A DNA stretch of 34,777 nucleotides from Bacteroidota bacterium. Its GTDB lineage: Bacteria > Bacteroidota > Bacteroidia > Bacteroidales > UBA10428. The notes below the pieces were generated by a model. That model did not search any database and was not told the origin of the DNA. It saw only the letters and a list, made by a program, of their open reading frames with translations. The position numbers were made by a program, and so were the translations under genes. The stretch lies in NCBI GenBank assembly GCA_003252385.1, contig QKEH01000081.1:1-34777 (forward strand). The letters run 5' to 3'. Within the stretch, counting starts at the first letter, position 1; every line of letters starts with the position of its first letter. Positions 14,820-30,709 of the stretch are shown here, piece by piece.

Positions 14820-17800
14820 TTAAAAATCGAGATTGAGCGACAGGTAGAAAATACGCGGAAGTACCTGCAGGTCGTCAATTCCCCAGGCCCAGTCGAGCCG
14901 TATAAAATATCCGAAAAGTTGCGAACGCACACCAAAGCCGTAACCCGCCACCACCGGATTGCGGTTGGAGTCAATCTCAATGGTAATGTTCGGAGGTTGT
15001 TGAATAATATCGTTATCGTAAGCGTTTTTACGCGCCCAGGGGTGCAACCCCGACCAGGCCGTACCAATATCGAAGAAGCCCACAGCTTGCAAGTTCTCAA
15101 TAAAGGCATTGCTCAGCGGATGATTGACCAGATAGCTGATAATGGGCCAGCGGATTTCGGAATTTATAACCGCAAAATTATTTCCGTTCCGAATATTCTG
15201 CGAGAATCCACGCATGTTGGTAGCCACAGCCTGATAGGCGTAGTTGACATTTTCATCAATCCGTATTTCGGAGAGCGGAATAAAAGTAGGATGCTTGGAA
15301 GGGGTAACATTCGTCCAGTTGTCGACCCCTCCCAGGTAGTATATTAAACGGCTGCTGCCAAAGGATGAACTGGCAGCAAAGCGATTGGCCAATATCAGGT
15401 TGCGGTGCAGTACGGTATAATGGCGAAAATCGCCGCCCAACACCACCAGATTATCATAGCGTCCGTTCACCTGCTGATAAAATTCGGTAAACAGTTTAAA
15501 CCGGGTGCCTCCCATCAAATTAATTCCCAACGAACGGGTATTGTCGAAAATATATTCGGCCTTAGCGCGGCTCCATAAGCGGAAATCATCGGATTGATTC
15601 AAGGCTTCCTGCATGCGGCTTTGTTGACCGGTAATATCGTACAGGTATACATTCCGGTCGTTCCGGAGGGTACCGGTAAATACCACCGAGGTTACCTGAC
15701 TGAAGGGATAACGGTATATGGCCGACAACTCGTTGGTCAGGGTTTTAATATAAAGGGTGCTTTCGTCGCCACCAAAATGCTTAAAGGCTTGCCGGTGGTA
15801 GACATATTGTTTATCCCAGCGTTTTTTGAGGTTTTCGAAACTAATCAGGTATTCGCTGCTTTCAAAATCGAGAGGTATACGAATACCGGCGGTAACCTTG
15901 TAGTCCTCGAATAAATCGTGGGTTCCCACCTTCATCAGGGCATTGGCTCCCGGATTAAAATATACAGCACCCCCTGTAAATGCTTGGTACGATTCACTCA
16001 GGAACCCAAAATCAATTTGGCTGACAATATAATTCTGATAGAACGAAGGCTGATAAATCCGAACCTTCTTTTCCTCATCCTCTATTTTTTCGACTATCCG
16101 CAAGTGGTACCCTTCGTCAGACAACTTGCTGTTGTACAAATTGATCCGTTCAATTTCAAAGGTATAATTATTGATATCAACATCCTGGTATTCAAATTGA
16201 ACGGTATCAGATGCGTATATCAAACGCCCATTTACCACCGAATCGATAGGTACGTACTCCAAATGGATAGCCTGCAGGCTGTCGCGCAGCATTAACCGTT
16301 GGGTGTGCTTTTGGCGAAAAGGGGTAAGCTCCAGATTGTGATCCAAAGGAATTTCCTGCTCGTAAGGACGCGCATACATGTAGTAGCGTCCATCCTGATA
16401 CACCACTTCGGCATATTTGTTGGCATTGGCATTGTAATCCTGTTCCACAATGCTCCTGGGATAATCGGTGAGCGGCGCCGTATGGGCTATGTAGCGGTAA
16501 TGAACCAGGGTATCCACATAGCTTATGGTACTGTCAAAAGCCGAATAGTAACGGTTTACAATCCCGTTTTTATCGCTTAAGGAGATAAATTCGTTTCGCC
16601 CCACCTCATGGGCTGAGGCCTTGCTCACGTAATAATCGTCAGACAGGCGCATGAGCATATCGCTTCGGTTGGCGTAATCGTAAATAAAAAGTTCGCGGGT
16701 AAAGGAAGTTTTGGTATCGATTGCTGCTGCCGAAAGCGAATCCGAACGTCGGTCGGAACTGAAAATAATCTGGTTCGACTTATTGATGAATCGAGGGTCA
16801 AAATCGTTGGCCCGATCGTTGGTTACCTGGAAATTGGAACCGGCAGCAATGGTGTGCACGTAAATATCCGATTGTCCGTTGCGAACAGCCGATAATACCA
16901 TCAGAGTGCCATCGTGCGAGAAGGAATAATCCAATATCTTCTCGTAGTAAAGCATATTCCGCACTTTGAGCTGCTTTTCGCCAAAGGTGTAGTAGTACAT
17001 CTTTAGCCCTCCTTCCTCCTCGGTAATAAAAGTCAGCGTTCGCCCCGACGGATGCCAGGCTAAAACCGGGTAGGAATAATCGGTAATCTGTTCCAGCTTG
17101 TGCTCCTTTTTAAAGATCCGTTCCTTTTTGCCCGTTTCGGTGTTGTAGAGCCAAACCTTATACTGCCCCATCTGATTGGTAACATAGGCCACATAGCGCC
17201 CCAGCGGATTAACCGATACCTGCTGGTAGGTGCGGTGGCGCCGGGGTCGTTTGAGCAACTGCCCCGAAGTGGGACGGGTTTTCGATTCAAACCCGGAGTA
17301 CAGGTCGCGGTAGTAAGCGTTCCAATCGCGCGAAAGTTCCTTTAATGGAGCTCCTACTACGTACAAAAAACCGACATTGGCATTTTTGTTCACCTTGGTC
17401 AGATAGAGTATACTGGGGATAACCGACTCGCCGTACACCTGGGCAATATAGTGCCAAAACGAATGACCGGCATAACGGGCGTCCTCATCAATCAGCCGAC
17501 TGAACTTTTTATACTTGCCACTGAGAATGCCGTCCTTCACAAAGTTTTCCGTCTCAAAATCCCAGCCTTTCGACAGGTATGCCACCAGCCCTTCGATGTA
17601 CCAGTCAGGCAAATTAATTAGGGTGGAACTGGCCACGTTTTGTCGCAGATCCACCCCGTAAATCATTTCGCTGATCAGTACCCTCGCAATGGTGGCCGAA
17701 ATTTGTTCGTCCAGTTTGTGGTAATCTCCCTCAAAATACAGAAAAACCTTGTTGCGGTCTATCTGGGTAATACCGCCGATATTGTTATCAGCCTTTCCGG

Positions 17801-18131
17801 TAACCAAGCCAATATTACTTTGGCGGAAGTCCGAAAGCTTATTATACACAACGAAAATAATGCGTTGATCGAGATTATAGTCGAACATTTGCTCCATGCG
17901 CACCAATTCCTTAGAGGCATATTCGGCTACATAATCGGCAATGGCTTTCCCATATTCGTTAAAATAGGTATCAAAACGGCCGTAGCGTTTGTACGACCAA
18001 TAAAACCCATTGTATTGCACCCGGTTTTTACCAAAGGTCATTTGATGCCCGTTGTAGAACTGCGCCGGAAGTAAAGCAGAACAGAGCAAGAAAATACCGA
18101 GTATACTGGTGCGTAAGCGTTTGCCTGTCAT
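14820..18131 (-). CDS. Pseudo-gluzincin / TolB-like propeller / outer-membrane barrel fusion protein
   Basis: A 1103-residue exported protein. Residues 1-23 are a signal peptide. Residues about 40-290 look like a peptidase-MA (gluzincin) domain: LPDWYIEGLVAYLSKGW (174-190) matches the third-zinc-ligand helix of that fold. The place of the HExxH helix reads ISATIARVLISEMIYG (144-159), with no HExxH, so it is probably inactive. Residues about 300-540 carry PD40/TolB-like propeller strands (LGRYVAYVTN, WHPSGRTLTFITEE, SHDGTLMVLSAVRNGQSDIY, NQIIFSSDRRSDS). The last roughly 400 residues are beta-strand rich and end FYLSLNLDF, with the terminal Phe typical of outer-membrane barrels. Large proteins of this architecture occur in Bacteroidota, without known function. 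Divergent from the DUF1573 gene. Confidence 0.8.
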   Translation of the reverse strand: MTGKRLRTSILGIFLLCSALLPAQFYNGHQMTFGKNRVQYNGFYWSYKRYGRFDTYFNEYGKAIADYVAEYASKELVRMEQMFDYNLDQRIIFVVYNKLSDFRQSNIGLVTGKADNNIGGITQIDRNKVFLYFEGDYHKLDEQISATIARVLISEMIYGVDLRQNVASSTLINLPDWYIEGLVAYLSKGWDFETENFVKDGILSGKYKKFSRLIDEDARYAGHSFWHYIAQVYGESVIPSILYLTKVNKNANVGFLYVVGAPLKELSRDWNAYYRDLYSGFESKTRPTSGQLLKRPRRHRTYQQVSVNPLGRYVAYVTNQMGQYKVWLYNTETGKKERIFKKEHKLEQITDYSYPVLAWHPSGRTLTFITEEEGGLKMYYYTFGEKQLKVRNMLYYEKILDYSFSHDGTLMVLSAVRNGQSDIYVHTIAAGSNFQVTNDRANDFDPRFINKSNQIIFSSDRRSDSLSAAAIDTKTSFTRELFIYDYANRSDMLMRLSDDYYVSKASAHEVGRNEFISLSDKNGIVNRYYSAFDSTISYVDTLVHYRYIAHTAPLTDYPRSIVEQDYNANANKYAEVVYQDGRYYMYARPYEQEIPLDHNLELTPFRQKHTQRLMLRDSLQAIHLEYVPIDSVVNGRLIYASDTVQFEYQDVDINNYTFEIERINLYNSKLSDEGYHLRIVEKIEDEEKKVRIYQPSFYQNYIVSQIDFGFLSESYQAFTGGAVYFNPGANALMKVGTHDLFEDYKVTAGIRIPLDFESSEYLISFENLKKRWDKQYVYHRQAFKHFGGDESTLYIKTLTNELSAIYRYPFSQVTSVVFTGTLRNDRNVYLYDITGQQSRMQEALNQSDDFRLWSRAKAEYIFDNTRSLGINLMGGTRFKLFTEFYQQVNGRYDNLVVLGGDFRHYTVLHRNLILANRFAASSSFGSSRLIYYLGGVDNWTNVTPSKHPTFIPLSEIRIDENVNYAYQAVATNMRGFSQNIRNGNNFAVINSEIRWPIISYLVNHPLSNAFIENLQAVGFFDIGTAWSGLHPWARKNAYDNDIIQQPPNITIEIDSNRNPVVAGYGFGVRSQLFGYFIRLDWAWGIDDLQVLPRIFYLSLNLDF

Positions 18132-22081: not shown

Positions 22082-22198
22082 CACGGTTAAATCCTTTTTG
22101 GAGGGTAACATAATACGATTTCTGCTGCATTACTTTGCGTAATATGGTTTCAGAATGAACGTTTATTGTAAGCAACCCCTGTAATACCATAAAACAAC

Positions 22199-22224
22199 AA
22201 GCCCCGATCCAATGATCGGGGCTT
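22199..22224. terminator. Strong hairpin between lpdA and the 68-residue gene
   Basis: AAGCCCCGATC (22199-22209) pairs perfectly with GATCGGGGCTT (22214-22224), an 11-bp stem with a 4-base loop CAAT. On the minus strand it is followed by GTTGTTTT, so it terminates the small gene at 22247. Its position between convergent genes suggests that it also stops lpdA transcripts. Confidence 0.8.
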
Positions 22225-22246
22225 ATAGTATCTGAACCCAATGTCG

Positions 22247-22453
22247 TTAATACGAAAATTGATACTTTTTCCGAAGTTCCTTTTGGTAATTTCGGATTTG
22301 CCCCTCCAAATCCTTGATTTCTCCACGGAGCTGAACGGTACTCTGGCCCTCCATCTCAAGCTCACGAATAAATCTCCGGTTAATGATAATCTTCTTTTGA
22401 CATTCGTAAATACTTGAAATCAAACTCTTAATATTATATTTAACTTCCAACAT
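22247..22453 (-). CDS. Small coiled-coil protein (68 aa), unknown function
   Basis: A 68-residue highly charged protein with no cysteines apart from one near residue 18 and no membrane segment. From residue 25 to 62 the heptad-like pattern (FIRELEMEGQ, QLRGEIKDLEGQIRNYQKEL) predicts a coiled coil. It is judged a real gene because it has a canonical promoter (TTTG, 20-base spacer, TACTTTTA at 22496-22527) and a strong terminator (22199-22224) tightly around it. I do not recognise the family. It might be a small structural or regulatory partner protein. Its 36-base leader lies next to a structured non-coding stretch on the other side. Confidence 0.7.
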   Translation of the reverse strand: MLEVKYNIKSLISSIYECQKKIIINRRFIRELEMEGQSTVQLRGEIKDLEGQIRNYQKELRKKYQFSY

Positions 22454-22495
22454 AGCGATACGTTTAATGCGGGTGAATGATGACTGACTGCTATG

Positions 22496-22527
22496 TAAAA
22501 GTATGGAATGTAGGAGGGGTGGTCAAA
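22496..22527 (-). promoter_or_regulatory. Bacteroidota-type promoter of the 68-residue gene
   Basis: On the minus strand TTTG (plus positions 22524-22527) is followed after 20 bases by TACTTTTA (plus 22496-22503), one base off TAnnTTTG. The spacing is the canonical -33/-7 distance, and the ATG is about 43 bases downstream of the box. Confidence 0.6.
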
Positions 22528-22557
22528 TTATTTAAAATGATGTTGGTTATCATATAA

Positions 22558-22639
22558 AGGTGATTTAAATCAAGACGCATATACTGATTTGATATTCACC
22601 TGTTTGCAACGAACCTCTTGGAACGGTTCGGATTTTTTT
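22558..22639 (+). ncRNA. Candidate small RNA: stem-loop followed by terminator
   Basis: AGGTGA (22558-22563) and AAATCA (22567-22572) pair with TGATTT (22585-22590) and TCACCT (22596-22601), making a 12-bp two-part stem with an internal loop and a 12-base apical loop. Eight bases later CGAACC (22610-22615) pairs with GGTTCG (22625-22630), and a run of seven T's follows at 22633-22639, an intrinsic terminator on the plus strand. No plus-strand gene lies immediately upstream that would need it: the 68-residue gene runs the other way and lpdA is already terminated at 22199-22224. A short independent transcript is the simplest explanation, though no clear promoter was found. No known RNA family was recognised. 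Confidence 0.4.
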
Positions 22640-22676
22640 ATTCTTCCCACATTCTCTTAAACTGAATGCCCCCCTC

Positions 22677-22700
22677 TCAGGAACAAAAAAGCGTTCCTGA
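22677..22700. repeat. Perfect inverted repeat in the leader region of the repeat-protein gene
   Basis: TCAGGAAC (22677-22684) pairs with GTTCCTGA (22693-22700) across an 8-base loop AAAAAAGC. It lies 45 bases upstream of the -7 box at 22745, so it could be an operator or a transcript hairpin. No T-tract follows on the plus strand. Confidence 0.45.
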
Positions 22701-22744
22701 ACGAAGCCCTGGTAAAATTATGATTGGCCTGTAAAATTATTCAT

Positions 22745-22752
22745 TAGATTTG
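22745..22752 (+). promoter_or_regulatory. -7 promoter element (TAGATTTG) of the ten-repeat protein gene
   Basis: An exact TAnnTTTG match 28 bases upstream of the ATG at 22781; an ATTG about 18 bases before it may be a degenerate -33 element. Confidence 0.5.
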
Positions 22753-22780
22753 GTAAACCAAACCAATACCCCTCTTCAGA

Positions 22781-23881
22781 ATGTATCGTTTATGGGTGAT
22801 TCTCTTACTGTTTCTGGGATCCAATTCGTCACCGGCTCAACACCTGGCAGCCTATTCCGATTCAAGAGGGCATTTTTTTGTTTTCGACCACGAAGAACAA
22901 CTCATGATTGAGGAGCTGGCGGTTCGCTCCTTTGAGGTAGGAGGTAACTGCATTCTCTATGTAGACGCAACCGGCCATCTGAAATGTTACTACAACAATT
23001 GGGTAAAACAGCTTGAGCTGGGAGGAATCAGCGAATACCGGGCAACAGATTATCTGGCTGCCTACCTGGCTTATGGTAAACTTTGCCTGGTAGCAGAGGG
23101 CAGTAAAAAAATTCTCAGCTACCGCTGTCCAATGGCTCGCATTGAGGACAGCCTCATTGTTTTCTACGACAAAAACCAGGAAGCCTTGCAGGCATTTTAC
23201 AACGACACTATTCAGGAGATTGAGAATGGAATTATTGGGTTTCCTGCTACCTCCATGGCCAGCAGCGATAATCTGTTTGCATACGTATCGGCACGCACAG
23301 GCAACTTCAACATTTTTTACCGTGGAAAAATTACTACCCTGATTCGCAGTGCGGGCAACTTACGTTATGCCACCGGCCGCGACATTGTGGTTTATATTAA
23401 TCCGGAAAACGGCAGTTTTAACGTTTTTTACAAGGGGCAAATCAGACAACTGGAAACCTTCCCACCCCAATCCTTTAAGGTGGGCGATGGCTTTGTGGCT
23501 TATGTGGATGATATGGGAGCCTTCAATGTTTTTGATGGGGAACAAACTCGCGAACTGTCCTACTATACCCCGGATTCGTATCAAACCGAAGATCAACTCC
23601 TGGTATATGCAACAGATAACTATTTTTATGCCTATTGGGAAACTCAGTCGTATGAGCTGGAATCGTTCATTCCTCTGGATTATAAAATGGATTGGAACAC
23701 ATTGGTTTATCGCGACCAGACCAACCGGATTTGGAGTTTTTCAAAGGGACAGAAGGACTATCTGGTGAACGACCTGCTCGACAACTACACTATATACCGC
23801 GATTTAATTATTCTGGATCCACACATGGAACGTTGCAGGATCTACTATCAGGGAAAAACCCTCAGGGGCTTTGCCTATTAG
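22781..23881 (+). CDS. Secreted protein of about ten 35-residue beta repeats, unknown function
   Basis: A 366-residue exported protein with a signal peptide (MYRLWVILLLFLGSNSSPA, cleavage likely after Ala19). The whole mature chain, from residue 22 to the end, is about ten copies of a 33-38 residue unit. The clearest copies read LFAYVSARTGNFNIFYRGK, IVVYINPENGSFNVFYKGQ, FVAYVDDMGAFNVFDGEQ and LLVYATDNYFYAYWETQ, each followed by a segment of the form '.xLE....P.S[FY]..gd'. The pattern (hydrophobic-x-[AV]-Y-x-D/N, Gly, F-x-V-F-Y-x-G) fits four-strand propeller blades or a solenoid. Weak similarity to TolB/WD40-like propellers is possible, but I cannot name the family. It is convergent with the four-TM gene, one base between stops. 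Confidence 0.75.
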   Translation: MYRLWVILLLFLGSNSSPAQHLAAYSDSRGHFFVFDHEEQLMIEELAVRSFEVGGNCILYVDATGHLKCYYNNWVKQLELGGISEYRATDYLAAYLAYGKLCLVAEGSKKILSYRCPMARIEDSLIVFYDKNQEALQAFYNDTIQEIENGIIGFPATSMASSDNLFAYVSARTGNFNIFYRGKITTLIRSAGNLRYATGRDIVVYINPENGSFNVFYKGQIRQLETFPPQSFKVGDGFVAYVDDMGAFNVFDGEQTRELSYYTPDSYQTEDQLLVYATDNYFYAYWETQSYELESFIPLDYKMDWNTLVYRDQTNRIWSFSKGQKDYLVNDLLDNYTIYRDLIILDPHMERCRIYYQGKTLRGFAY

Positions 23882-23882
23882 G

Positions 23883-24299
23883 CTACAACATAGCCCACTG
23901 ACCCGAAACGATCAGAAACAGCAGGTATAAAAAATACAAGAAATTCACCGAGCTAAAGGCAATATTGTATTCCATCCGTTTCTTCTTCACTCTTCGTCGG
24001 AGCATAATGCCAATATTAGGTAAAAGTATGGACGATAGAAATACTAAAAAATATACATTGAATAACGTGTCGAATCCAGGCTCGCCCTCCTGCGACACCT
24101 TCACCCCAAATAAAAGCAAGTAGGTAAACACGAGCAATGCGGCTAAAAAAAGCAGATAGCTTATTTTTAAAGACATGGTGGAATACTTTCTCCGCTTATG
24201 CACCCTAAAAGGCCTGAGAATAATGATGGACACCACAAAAAGTATCACATAGCATAAAAGAAAAAAGAATTGGAAGATGCCGTGAAAGAAATTTCCCAT
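23883..24299 (-). CDS. Four-TM membrane protein, unknown function
   Basis: A 138-residue integral membrane protein, from the ATG at 24297-24299, with four hydrophobic helices (about residues 5-30, 44-66, 76-98, 112-134). Basic loops RVHKRRKYSTM and RRRVKKKRMEYN suggest cytoplasmic sides between helices 1-2 and 3-4. An in-frame ATG 42 bases upstream would add 14 residues and is possible. I do not recognise the family. It is convergent with the ten-repeat protein gene and lies downstream of rlmD on the same strand, 190 bases away, so co-transcription is uncertain. Confidence 0.65.
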   Translation of the reverse strand: MGNFFHGIFQFFFLLCYVILFVVSIIILRPFRVHKRRKYSTMSLKISYLLFLAALLVFTYLLLFGVKVSQEGEPGFDTLFNVYFLVFLSSILLPNIGIMLRRRVKKKRMEYNIAFSSVNFLYFLYLLFLIVSGQWAML

Positions 24300-24489
24300 A
24301 GCCTGACTGATTTGGTTAACCCAAGGTAACCAAAAATACACAACCTACGCTCGATCAGTTATTAACAGCCACAAGCCCTCCATACCCACTGATACCAACA
24401 AACCCAGGACAGTAGATACGTGCATAACCACAAGCCCATTTATCCGGATGGAATATACCCGGACATCAAGTTTTACATGGTTTTGAGAT

Positions 24490-30133: not shown

Positions 30134-30709
30134 ATGACCGACTTACAGTATTGGAACGAGCAATGGAAGCTCGTTCAGTTCGCAGGTATTGATCCTGTTG
30201 AAAAGTACCATGTATCCAATTACGGCAGAGTACGCAGGTTTGATTCCATTAAAAAGGAGTGGAAAATTCACAAACCCTCCAATGTTAATGGCTATGCTTA
30301 TTTCTCTTTTCGTACAATCATTCGCGAAAACCAGCGTACCCGAATCACCAAATGCCTGCACCGACTGGTTGCCGAAAACTTCCTGGGCAATCCACCGGAA
30401 GGCTGTAACAACGTAGTTCATAAAGATTTTAACAAATGGAACAACCATGTGGATAATCTGGAGTGGGCCAATCGAGAGACCATGTTTGCCCACAGTCGGC
30501 GAAGCCCCAAAACTGCCATTGCCATTGAAAAACGAAAAGGAGAAATAACCAACTCCAAACTAACCGAAACCGATGTCATTCGATTAAAGAAGAAATTAAA
30601 ACGAGGCAAGAATCCATTGTATAAGATTGCCAAGGAATTCGGCATTACGCATACCCAGCTTAACCGCATCCGTCGGGGCGAAAACTGGGCGCATGTTAAG
30701 ATTGATTAA
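30134..30709 (+). CDS. Stand-alone NUMOD4-HNH endonuclease with C-terminal HTH
   Basis: A 191-residue protein. NUMOD4 motif at residues 11-37 (WKLVQFAGIDPVEKYHVSNY). HNH_3-type core at about 74-112: CLHRLVAENFLGNPPEG, then NNVVHKDFNKWNNHVDNLEW with His76, His96 and Asn108 in the expected places. A small helix-turn-helix at about 143-188 (DVIRLKKKLKRGKNPLYKIA). The domain order is that of phage and group I intron homing endonucleases, but here it is free-standing, with no intron, intein or phage genes visible. Gly is replaced in the usual HxDG turn (HKDFNK), so cleavage activity is uncertain. A near -7 box (TAATTTAG) lies about 20 bases upstream of the ATG. Confidence 0.88.
   Translation: MTDLQYWNEQWKLVQFAGIDPVEKYHVSNYGRVRRFDSIKKEWKIHKPSNVNGYAYFSFRTIIRENQRTRITKCLHRLVAENFLGNPPEGCNNVVHKDFNKWNNHVDNLEWANRETMFAHSRRSPKTAIAIEKRKGEITNSKLTETDVIRLKKKLKRGKNPLYKIAKEFGITHTQLNRIRRGENWAHVKID

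Follow-up and report, generated by a model that had tools for sequence, protein, structure and literature searches.

Within the window, meaning the whole 34,777-nucleotide stretch of DNA that was analysed, an open reading frame with an ATG start at 22781–23881 on the forward strand encodes a 366-amino acid protein that is predicted to be exported and to fold as a ten-bladed β-propeller. The features of the gene are given below. The borders of the ten units, taken from the unit table, are cuts made at the strands of the AlphaFold2 model.

22745..22752, + strand: TAGATTTG, which fits the Bacteroidetes -7 promoter consensus TAnnTTTG and lies 36 nt upstream of the ATG (weak when taken alone)
22781..23881, + strand: gene of the putatively exported, predicted ten-bladed propeller protein, 366 aa, Pfam PF21734 10_blade (from the ORF, the Pfam match and the AlphaFold2 model)
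22781..22837, + strand: putative signal peptide, residues 1–19, with probable cleavage before Gln20 (from residues 1–20 of the sequence, the Q column in 45/50 homologues and pLDDT <50 at residues 1–17)
22844..22948, + strand: unit 1, residues 22–56
22949..23056, + strand: unit 2, residues 57–92
23057..23152, + strand: unit 3, residues 93–124
23153..23272, + strand: unit 4, residues 125–164
23273..23383, + strand: unit 5, residues 165–201
23384..23494, + strand: unit 6, residues 202–238
23495..23596, + strand: unit 7, residues 239–272
23597..23698, + strand: unit 8, residues 273–306
23699..23803, + strand: unit 9, residues 307–341
23804..23878, + strand: unit 10, residues 342–366, three strands in the model

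The gene is surrounded by household genes for a MeaB GTPase, a pyridine-nucleotide oxidoreductase, a protein of the tRNA/rRNA uracil methyltransferase type and an ABC protein. Convergent with it at 23883–24341 on the minus strand is a gene for a hydrophobic, probably membrane protein of 152 aa, conserved at 61–69% in three relatives and with no Pfam match above cut-off. Further away, a 1103-aa protein encoded at 14820–18131 on the minus strand matches PD40 propeller repeats and would be the window's second protein of the propeller type. At 30134–30709 on the plus strand, between a SpoU-type methyltransferase gene and a GAF-domain gene, lies a gene for a NUMOD4 / HNH endonuclease; genes of this kind occur in homing elements. 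Searches of the window for Rfam families at gathering scores and for tRNA and tmRNA genes returned nothing.

A comparison with Pfam-A matched the protein to PF21734, named "10_blade" (10-bladed beta propeller domain), with 266.9 bits against a curated cut-off of 27 (E = 4e-79). Residues 19–360 align to positions 4–344 of the 345 in the profile, which is thereby wholly covered, and judged by this match the protein is a member of the family. The original prediction, made from the sequence alone, recognised no known family and was wrong on this point. No NCBIfam model matches the protein at E up to 10. No significant sequence relatives were identified in the PDB; the best E values, 0.73 for the single sequence and 0.34 for a 50-row profile, were both to antibody chains. 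A literature search, from which subscription papers were largely absent, found no paper on PF21734; as far as this search shows, the family is already named and apparently unstudied.

The family has members in 20 of 60 genomes when the own genome is taken together with 59 relatives. Within the order, 34 of 392 genomes are positive with one copy in each, and within the phylum 3 of 296, the own genome being counted in both; none of 14 control genomes has a member. The remaining 358 genomes of the order gave no match, and the same holds for 295 of the 325 better ones; the 50-row profile found no second copy in the own genome at E up to 1. Conservation was assessed in a set of 50 proteins in which duplicates were merged by their last 200 residues, leaving fewer proteins than loci; two of its members, L022 and L023, are nearly identical. 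The other 49 homologues share 16 to 48% identity with the window protein. The mature chain is 339–351 aa long in 48 of the 50 and 358 and 365 aa in the remaining two, a constancy expected for a closed ring. The family is acidic (median pI 4.9) and rich in aromatic residues (median 16.6%). Two residues, G54 and P298, are the only ones shared by all 50 proteins, and the columns D27, F35, D36, G38, Y60, K68, Y70, L92, G107, D123, N164, G182, G199, P229, F251, P264 and Y310 are conserved in at least 90%. The window protein departs from the consensus at a few positions, such as E38 where 45 of the 50 have glycine, and otherwise differs from PF21734 in nothing of note. The most conserved residues (G54, P298, P264 and G199) look structural.

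The repeat region spans residues 22 to 361 and consists of ten diverged units of about 35 residues. Units 1–9 are 35, 36, 32, 40, 37, 37, 34, 34 and 35 residues long, and the last is shorter at 20–25. When the mature chain of 347 aa was compared with itself, peaks were found at offsets of 181 (z 6.8), 69 (z 5.4) and 35 (z 5.4), and none of 1000 shuffles matched the observed maximum in the offset range 25–60. The top five offsets of the 50-protein family profile (181, 250, 216, 69 and 35) are near multiples of 35. Smith-Waterman scores between units averaged 23.0 against 17.05 for shuffled units (sd 0.52, 200 shuffles). The period near 35 residues is real. The original prediction of an exported protein built from ten diverged units of this size is supported, and the unit pattern proposed there agrees in outline. 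Between proteins (10 chosen from the 50), units of the same number score 41.7 and different units 25.6. Since units of the same number are the more alike, the ten units are old and individually fixed, and the ring was complete before the family spread.

The AlphaFold2 calculations used four sequences, the window protein and three homologues of 27–29% identity, two of the four being nearly identical. The model of the window protein (pLDDT 84.4, pTM 0.80) contains 39 strands, four in each of nine sets and three in the last. With the same four sequences, the L021 homologue, which is 29% identical, gave a model of the same ten-blade plan (pLDDT 87.5, pTM 0.83) with 37 strands of at least three residues and two further strands of two residues, one of them behind a short helix. 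Thus both models present ten units of the four-stranded type, the last with three strands. On the PF21734 profile and the two models, the fold is very probably a ten-bladed propeller with short blades, as the original prediction had allowed in naming a propeller with unusual blades. Structural searches returned propeller proteins wherever the titles of the matches listed permit this to be told, at low similarity: Foldseek TM-scores were 0.23–0.35 of the query among the 50 matches listed, and the VIA-align RMSD exceeded 5 Å in all 50 matches listed. A search of viral models gave matches mostly labelled RCC1 or chromosome condensation regulator.

In the model of the window protein, the links between strands 2 and 3 are two residues long in nine of the ten units and four in the other, and those from strand 4 to strand 1 of the next set are 2–4 residues long. 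Strands 1 and 2 are joined by 2–7 residues (mean 4.8; unit 3 has 2) and strands 3 and 4 by 3–9 residues (mean 5.3). The strand 3–4 link is the likeliest crossing from the outer to the inner strand in every unit, and therefore the blade order would be 4-1-2-3, with the mature N-terminus starting on a second strand. Blade one would then be three-stranded and the last blade four-stranded, and no strand would be shared by the two chain ends. Whichever phase applies, the D-x-x-G and E-x-[FY]-x-P-x-S links fall on the same side, opposite the tight turns.

Two other architectures were considered. An open β-solenoid of ten turns, also weighed in the original prediction, would suit units as short as 35 residues, the last of them with only three strands. 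It is rejected by the propeller profile of PF21734 and the four-stranded units of both models; structural matches to propeller proteins and a family length so nearly fixed, which a solenoid does not need, make it most improbable. A ring derived from a duplicated five-bladed half, or in reality a pair of five-bladed rings, might be read from the offset of 181, or five units, which is the strongest peak in the window protein (z 6.8) and reaches z 11.2 in the family profile. However, the likeness between unit i and unit i+5 is not special, as 4040 of 20000 random pairings equal the observed value. On this count the doubling was rejected as very improbable, and the peak is attributed to equal spacing instead of special likeness.

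Ranks 1–8 in VIA-align, the best of the matches listed, are not sortilin but chains of the eIF3b/eIF2A type, an identity that in part we presume, with Z of 13.3–11.4 over 303–325 residues. The propellers of eIF3b and eIF2A are nine-bladed. These proteins are translation factors, with 7–10% identity to the window protein and an RMSD of 6.0 Å or more. The ten-bladed Vps10 domain of sortilin aligned to the window model over 318–333 residues with Z of 8.7–9.7 and an RMSD of 5.6–6.0. For the L021 model, chains of the eIF3 complex again rank first (Z 11.8), and the 50 matches listed do not include sortilin. Absence from a VIA-align or Foldseek list does not exclude a structural family. Vps10 propellers carry a 10CC domain after the propeller, whereas the window protein has no C-terminal domain and no significant sequence match in the PDB. 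The likeness to the Vps10 domain lies in the ten blades, described for sortilin in the accessible part of PMC2716378 and predicted for the window protein. The Asp-box motif, given in the same part of that paper as S-x-D-x-G-x-T-W, sets the two apart, as the pattern [ST]-x-D-x-G-x-x-[WFY] occurs in none of the 50 homologues of the window protein. The blades of about 35 residues are also shorter than the 40–50 residues given as typical of propellers in the portion of PMC6805158 that was available. A 35-residue repeat, WG_beta_rep (PF14903), is present on contig C175 of the same genome. It has the same unit length and, by eye, vaguely similar positions of aromatic residues, glycine and proline; however, PF14903 is not listed for the window protein at E up to 10. 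A relation to WG repeats was rejected when the blade profile reached at best 1.1 bits (E = 0.054) in a small test of two distinct WG proteins after filtering, from 12 loci.

The amino terminus has the appearance of a signal peptide, with pLDDT below 50 for residues 1–17, and the protein is inferred to be exported. Glutamine occupies the probable +1 position of the mature chain in 45 of 50 homologues and matches the Q-rule of Bacteroidetes as set out in the accessible parts of PMC5837995 and PMC10653852. Cysteine occurs at this position in none of the 50 and no lipobox was found at the cleavage site; a lipobox-like pattern is present within the signal region of three homologues, the window protein not among them. 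The propeller fills residues 22–361 of 366, with its last strand ending at residue 361. The window protein has neither a second domain nor a C-terminal signal domain of the type IX kind, the latter also judged from NCBIfam at E up to 10. Because no lipobox, second domain or type IX signal was found when the anatomy was tested, the protein is probably free in the periplasm.

The region upstream was originally described as a structured non-coding stretch, and the gene was said to have its own promoter box. The stretch is partly coding. The gap at 22082–22780 contains a 68-aa open reading frame on the minus strand (22247–22453) that is conserved: the gene is present in eight of nine genomes of the genus, own included, and at 68–82% identity in four of the 43 loci compared. 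Its product, small, charged and by eye coiled-coil-like, has no Pfam match above cut-off, and the genome carries a diverged second copy, 38% identical, on contig C86. A terminator-like hairpin does follow this gene at 22226–22197; it is weak evidence, since the scan found four such sites against 2.5 expected. Nearer the propeller gene, the fold of 22590–22720 is nothing special (z -1.49, with 16 of 200 shuffles as good). Upstream of the 68-aa gene, a conserved block at 22523–22572 contains the palindrome TGATTTAAATCA at 22561–22572, which is identical in four of five aligned genomes, with a single base difference in the other, and which we take to look like a Crp/Fnr-type operator. The promoter claim is plausible: TAnnTTTG is the consensus of the Bacteroidetes -7 box and the match TAGATTTG exists. 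Taken alone it is weak, as the window contains 31 copies of TANNTTTG where 29.2 are expected. Within 100 nt upstream, 11 of 49 homologues have TAnnTTTG (one of the 50 was dropped for want of a Met in range) against a mean of 3.0 and a largest value of 9 in 1000 mononucleotide shuffles. Despite this excess, a conserved promoter was rejected, as the distances are scattered from 10 to 93 nt.

No neighbour of the family is widely conserved. Neighbour clusters were built from ORFs of at least 70 aa joined by BLASTP scores above 60 bits, within at most 7 kb on either side of the gene (more in the window), many of these flanks being truncated by contig ends. The widest cluster other than the propeller itself covers six of 44 loci, all from genus g4; counted by family, clusters reach at most three families, with varying orientation and distance. 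In four loci of two families (f116 and f159) a RidA-type gene lies upstream on the same strand, with a gap of 24, 53 or 11 nt in three loci and of 1891 nt in the other, and the group it belongs to matches PF01042, PF19838, PF01520 and PF02470 (RidA-type, LptD, amidase and MlaD-type, one representative of each being scanned). This group is one weak hint of an envelope role. The type IX system is no predictor of the propeller, as SprA was found in 33 of 34 genomes with it and in 33 of 34 without, both being chosen sets. Neither conserved neighbours, type IX co-occurrence nor the most conserved residues point to a ligand.

Taken as a whole, the data are best explained, with modest confidence, by an exported periplasmic ten-bladed ring that binds a partner without catalysis. 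The protein would be exported by Sec and cleaved by signal peptidase I to a soluble form, and the whole mature chain would fold as one compact propeller of about 35 residues per blade, as the profile match and the models predict. It would most likely stay in the periplasm as a rigid ring. The D-x-x-G and E-x-[FY]-x-P-x-S links on one side of the antiparallel meander would form a loop-rich face, where a partner from the cell envelope, either protein or glycan, may be held. A non-enzymatic binding or scaffold function is itself a tentative assignment.

The same fold could also be that of an enzyme, such as a glycan lyase or hydrolase, whose active site would be in or close to the central tunnel. 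Acids on the loop side are well conserved (E/D at 44 in 50 of 50, E/D at 225 in 49 of 50 and D/N at 130 in 50 of 50), and many Asp-box propellers are glycosidases according to the available part of PMC2716378. However, several units have these acids at the same position, a pattern typical of structural turn residues, and the two residues invariant in all 50 proteins are a glycine and a proline (G54 and P298). Searches of Pfam and NCBIfam up to E = 10 gave no enzyme family, two chance-level Pfam matches aside, and catalysis appears quite unlikely. By analogy the ring might instead serve a fixed envelope-assembly machine, for example as a scaffold in outer-membrane or lipopolysaccharide assembly, as BamB serves the Bam complex in other phyla. 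The four loci in which the gene follows a RidA-type gene and is grouped with LptD, amidase and MlaD-type genes would fit this proposal, which is nonetheless unlikely: the other 40 of 44 loci lack these clusters within flanks of at most 7 kb, often truncated by contig ends, and no core machine depends on a propeller for which 358 of the 392 genomes in the order, and 295 of the 325 better ones, gave no match. A further reading is a second, independently evolved single-chain ten-bladed lineage without Asp-boxes, with unusually short blades and no exchange of end strands, in which a rigid, wide-bore periplasmic ring would hold an envelope component through or over its tunnel; this is possible, if rather doubtful.

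Some interest attaches to the family owing to the rarity of ten-bladed propellers. By 2009 none had been observed besides sortilin, the first, with members of ten repeats suspected in the RCC1 family (PMC2716378, accessible part), and a dimer of a five-bladed WRAP piece did not close into ten (PMC6805158, likewise in part). As a classification the present finding is ordinary; it is mildly interesting as an apparently unstudied ten-bladed lineage that lacks the Asp-boxes of sortilin, and a short, single-domain, secreted ten-bladed ring would make a handy test of how ten blades close.
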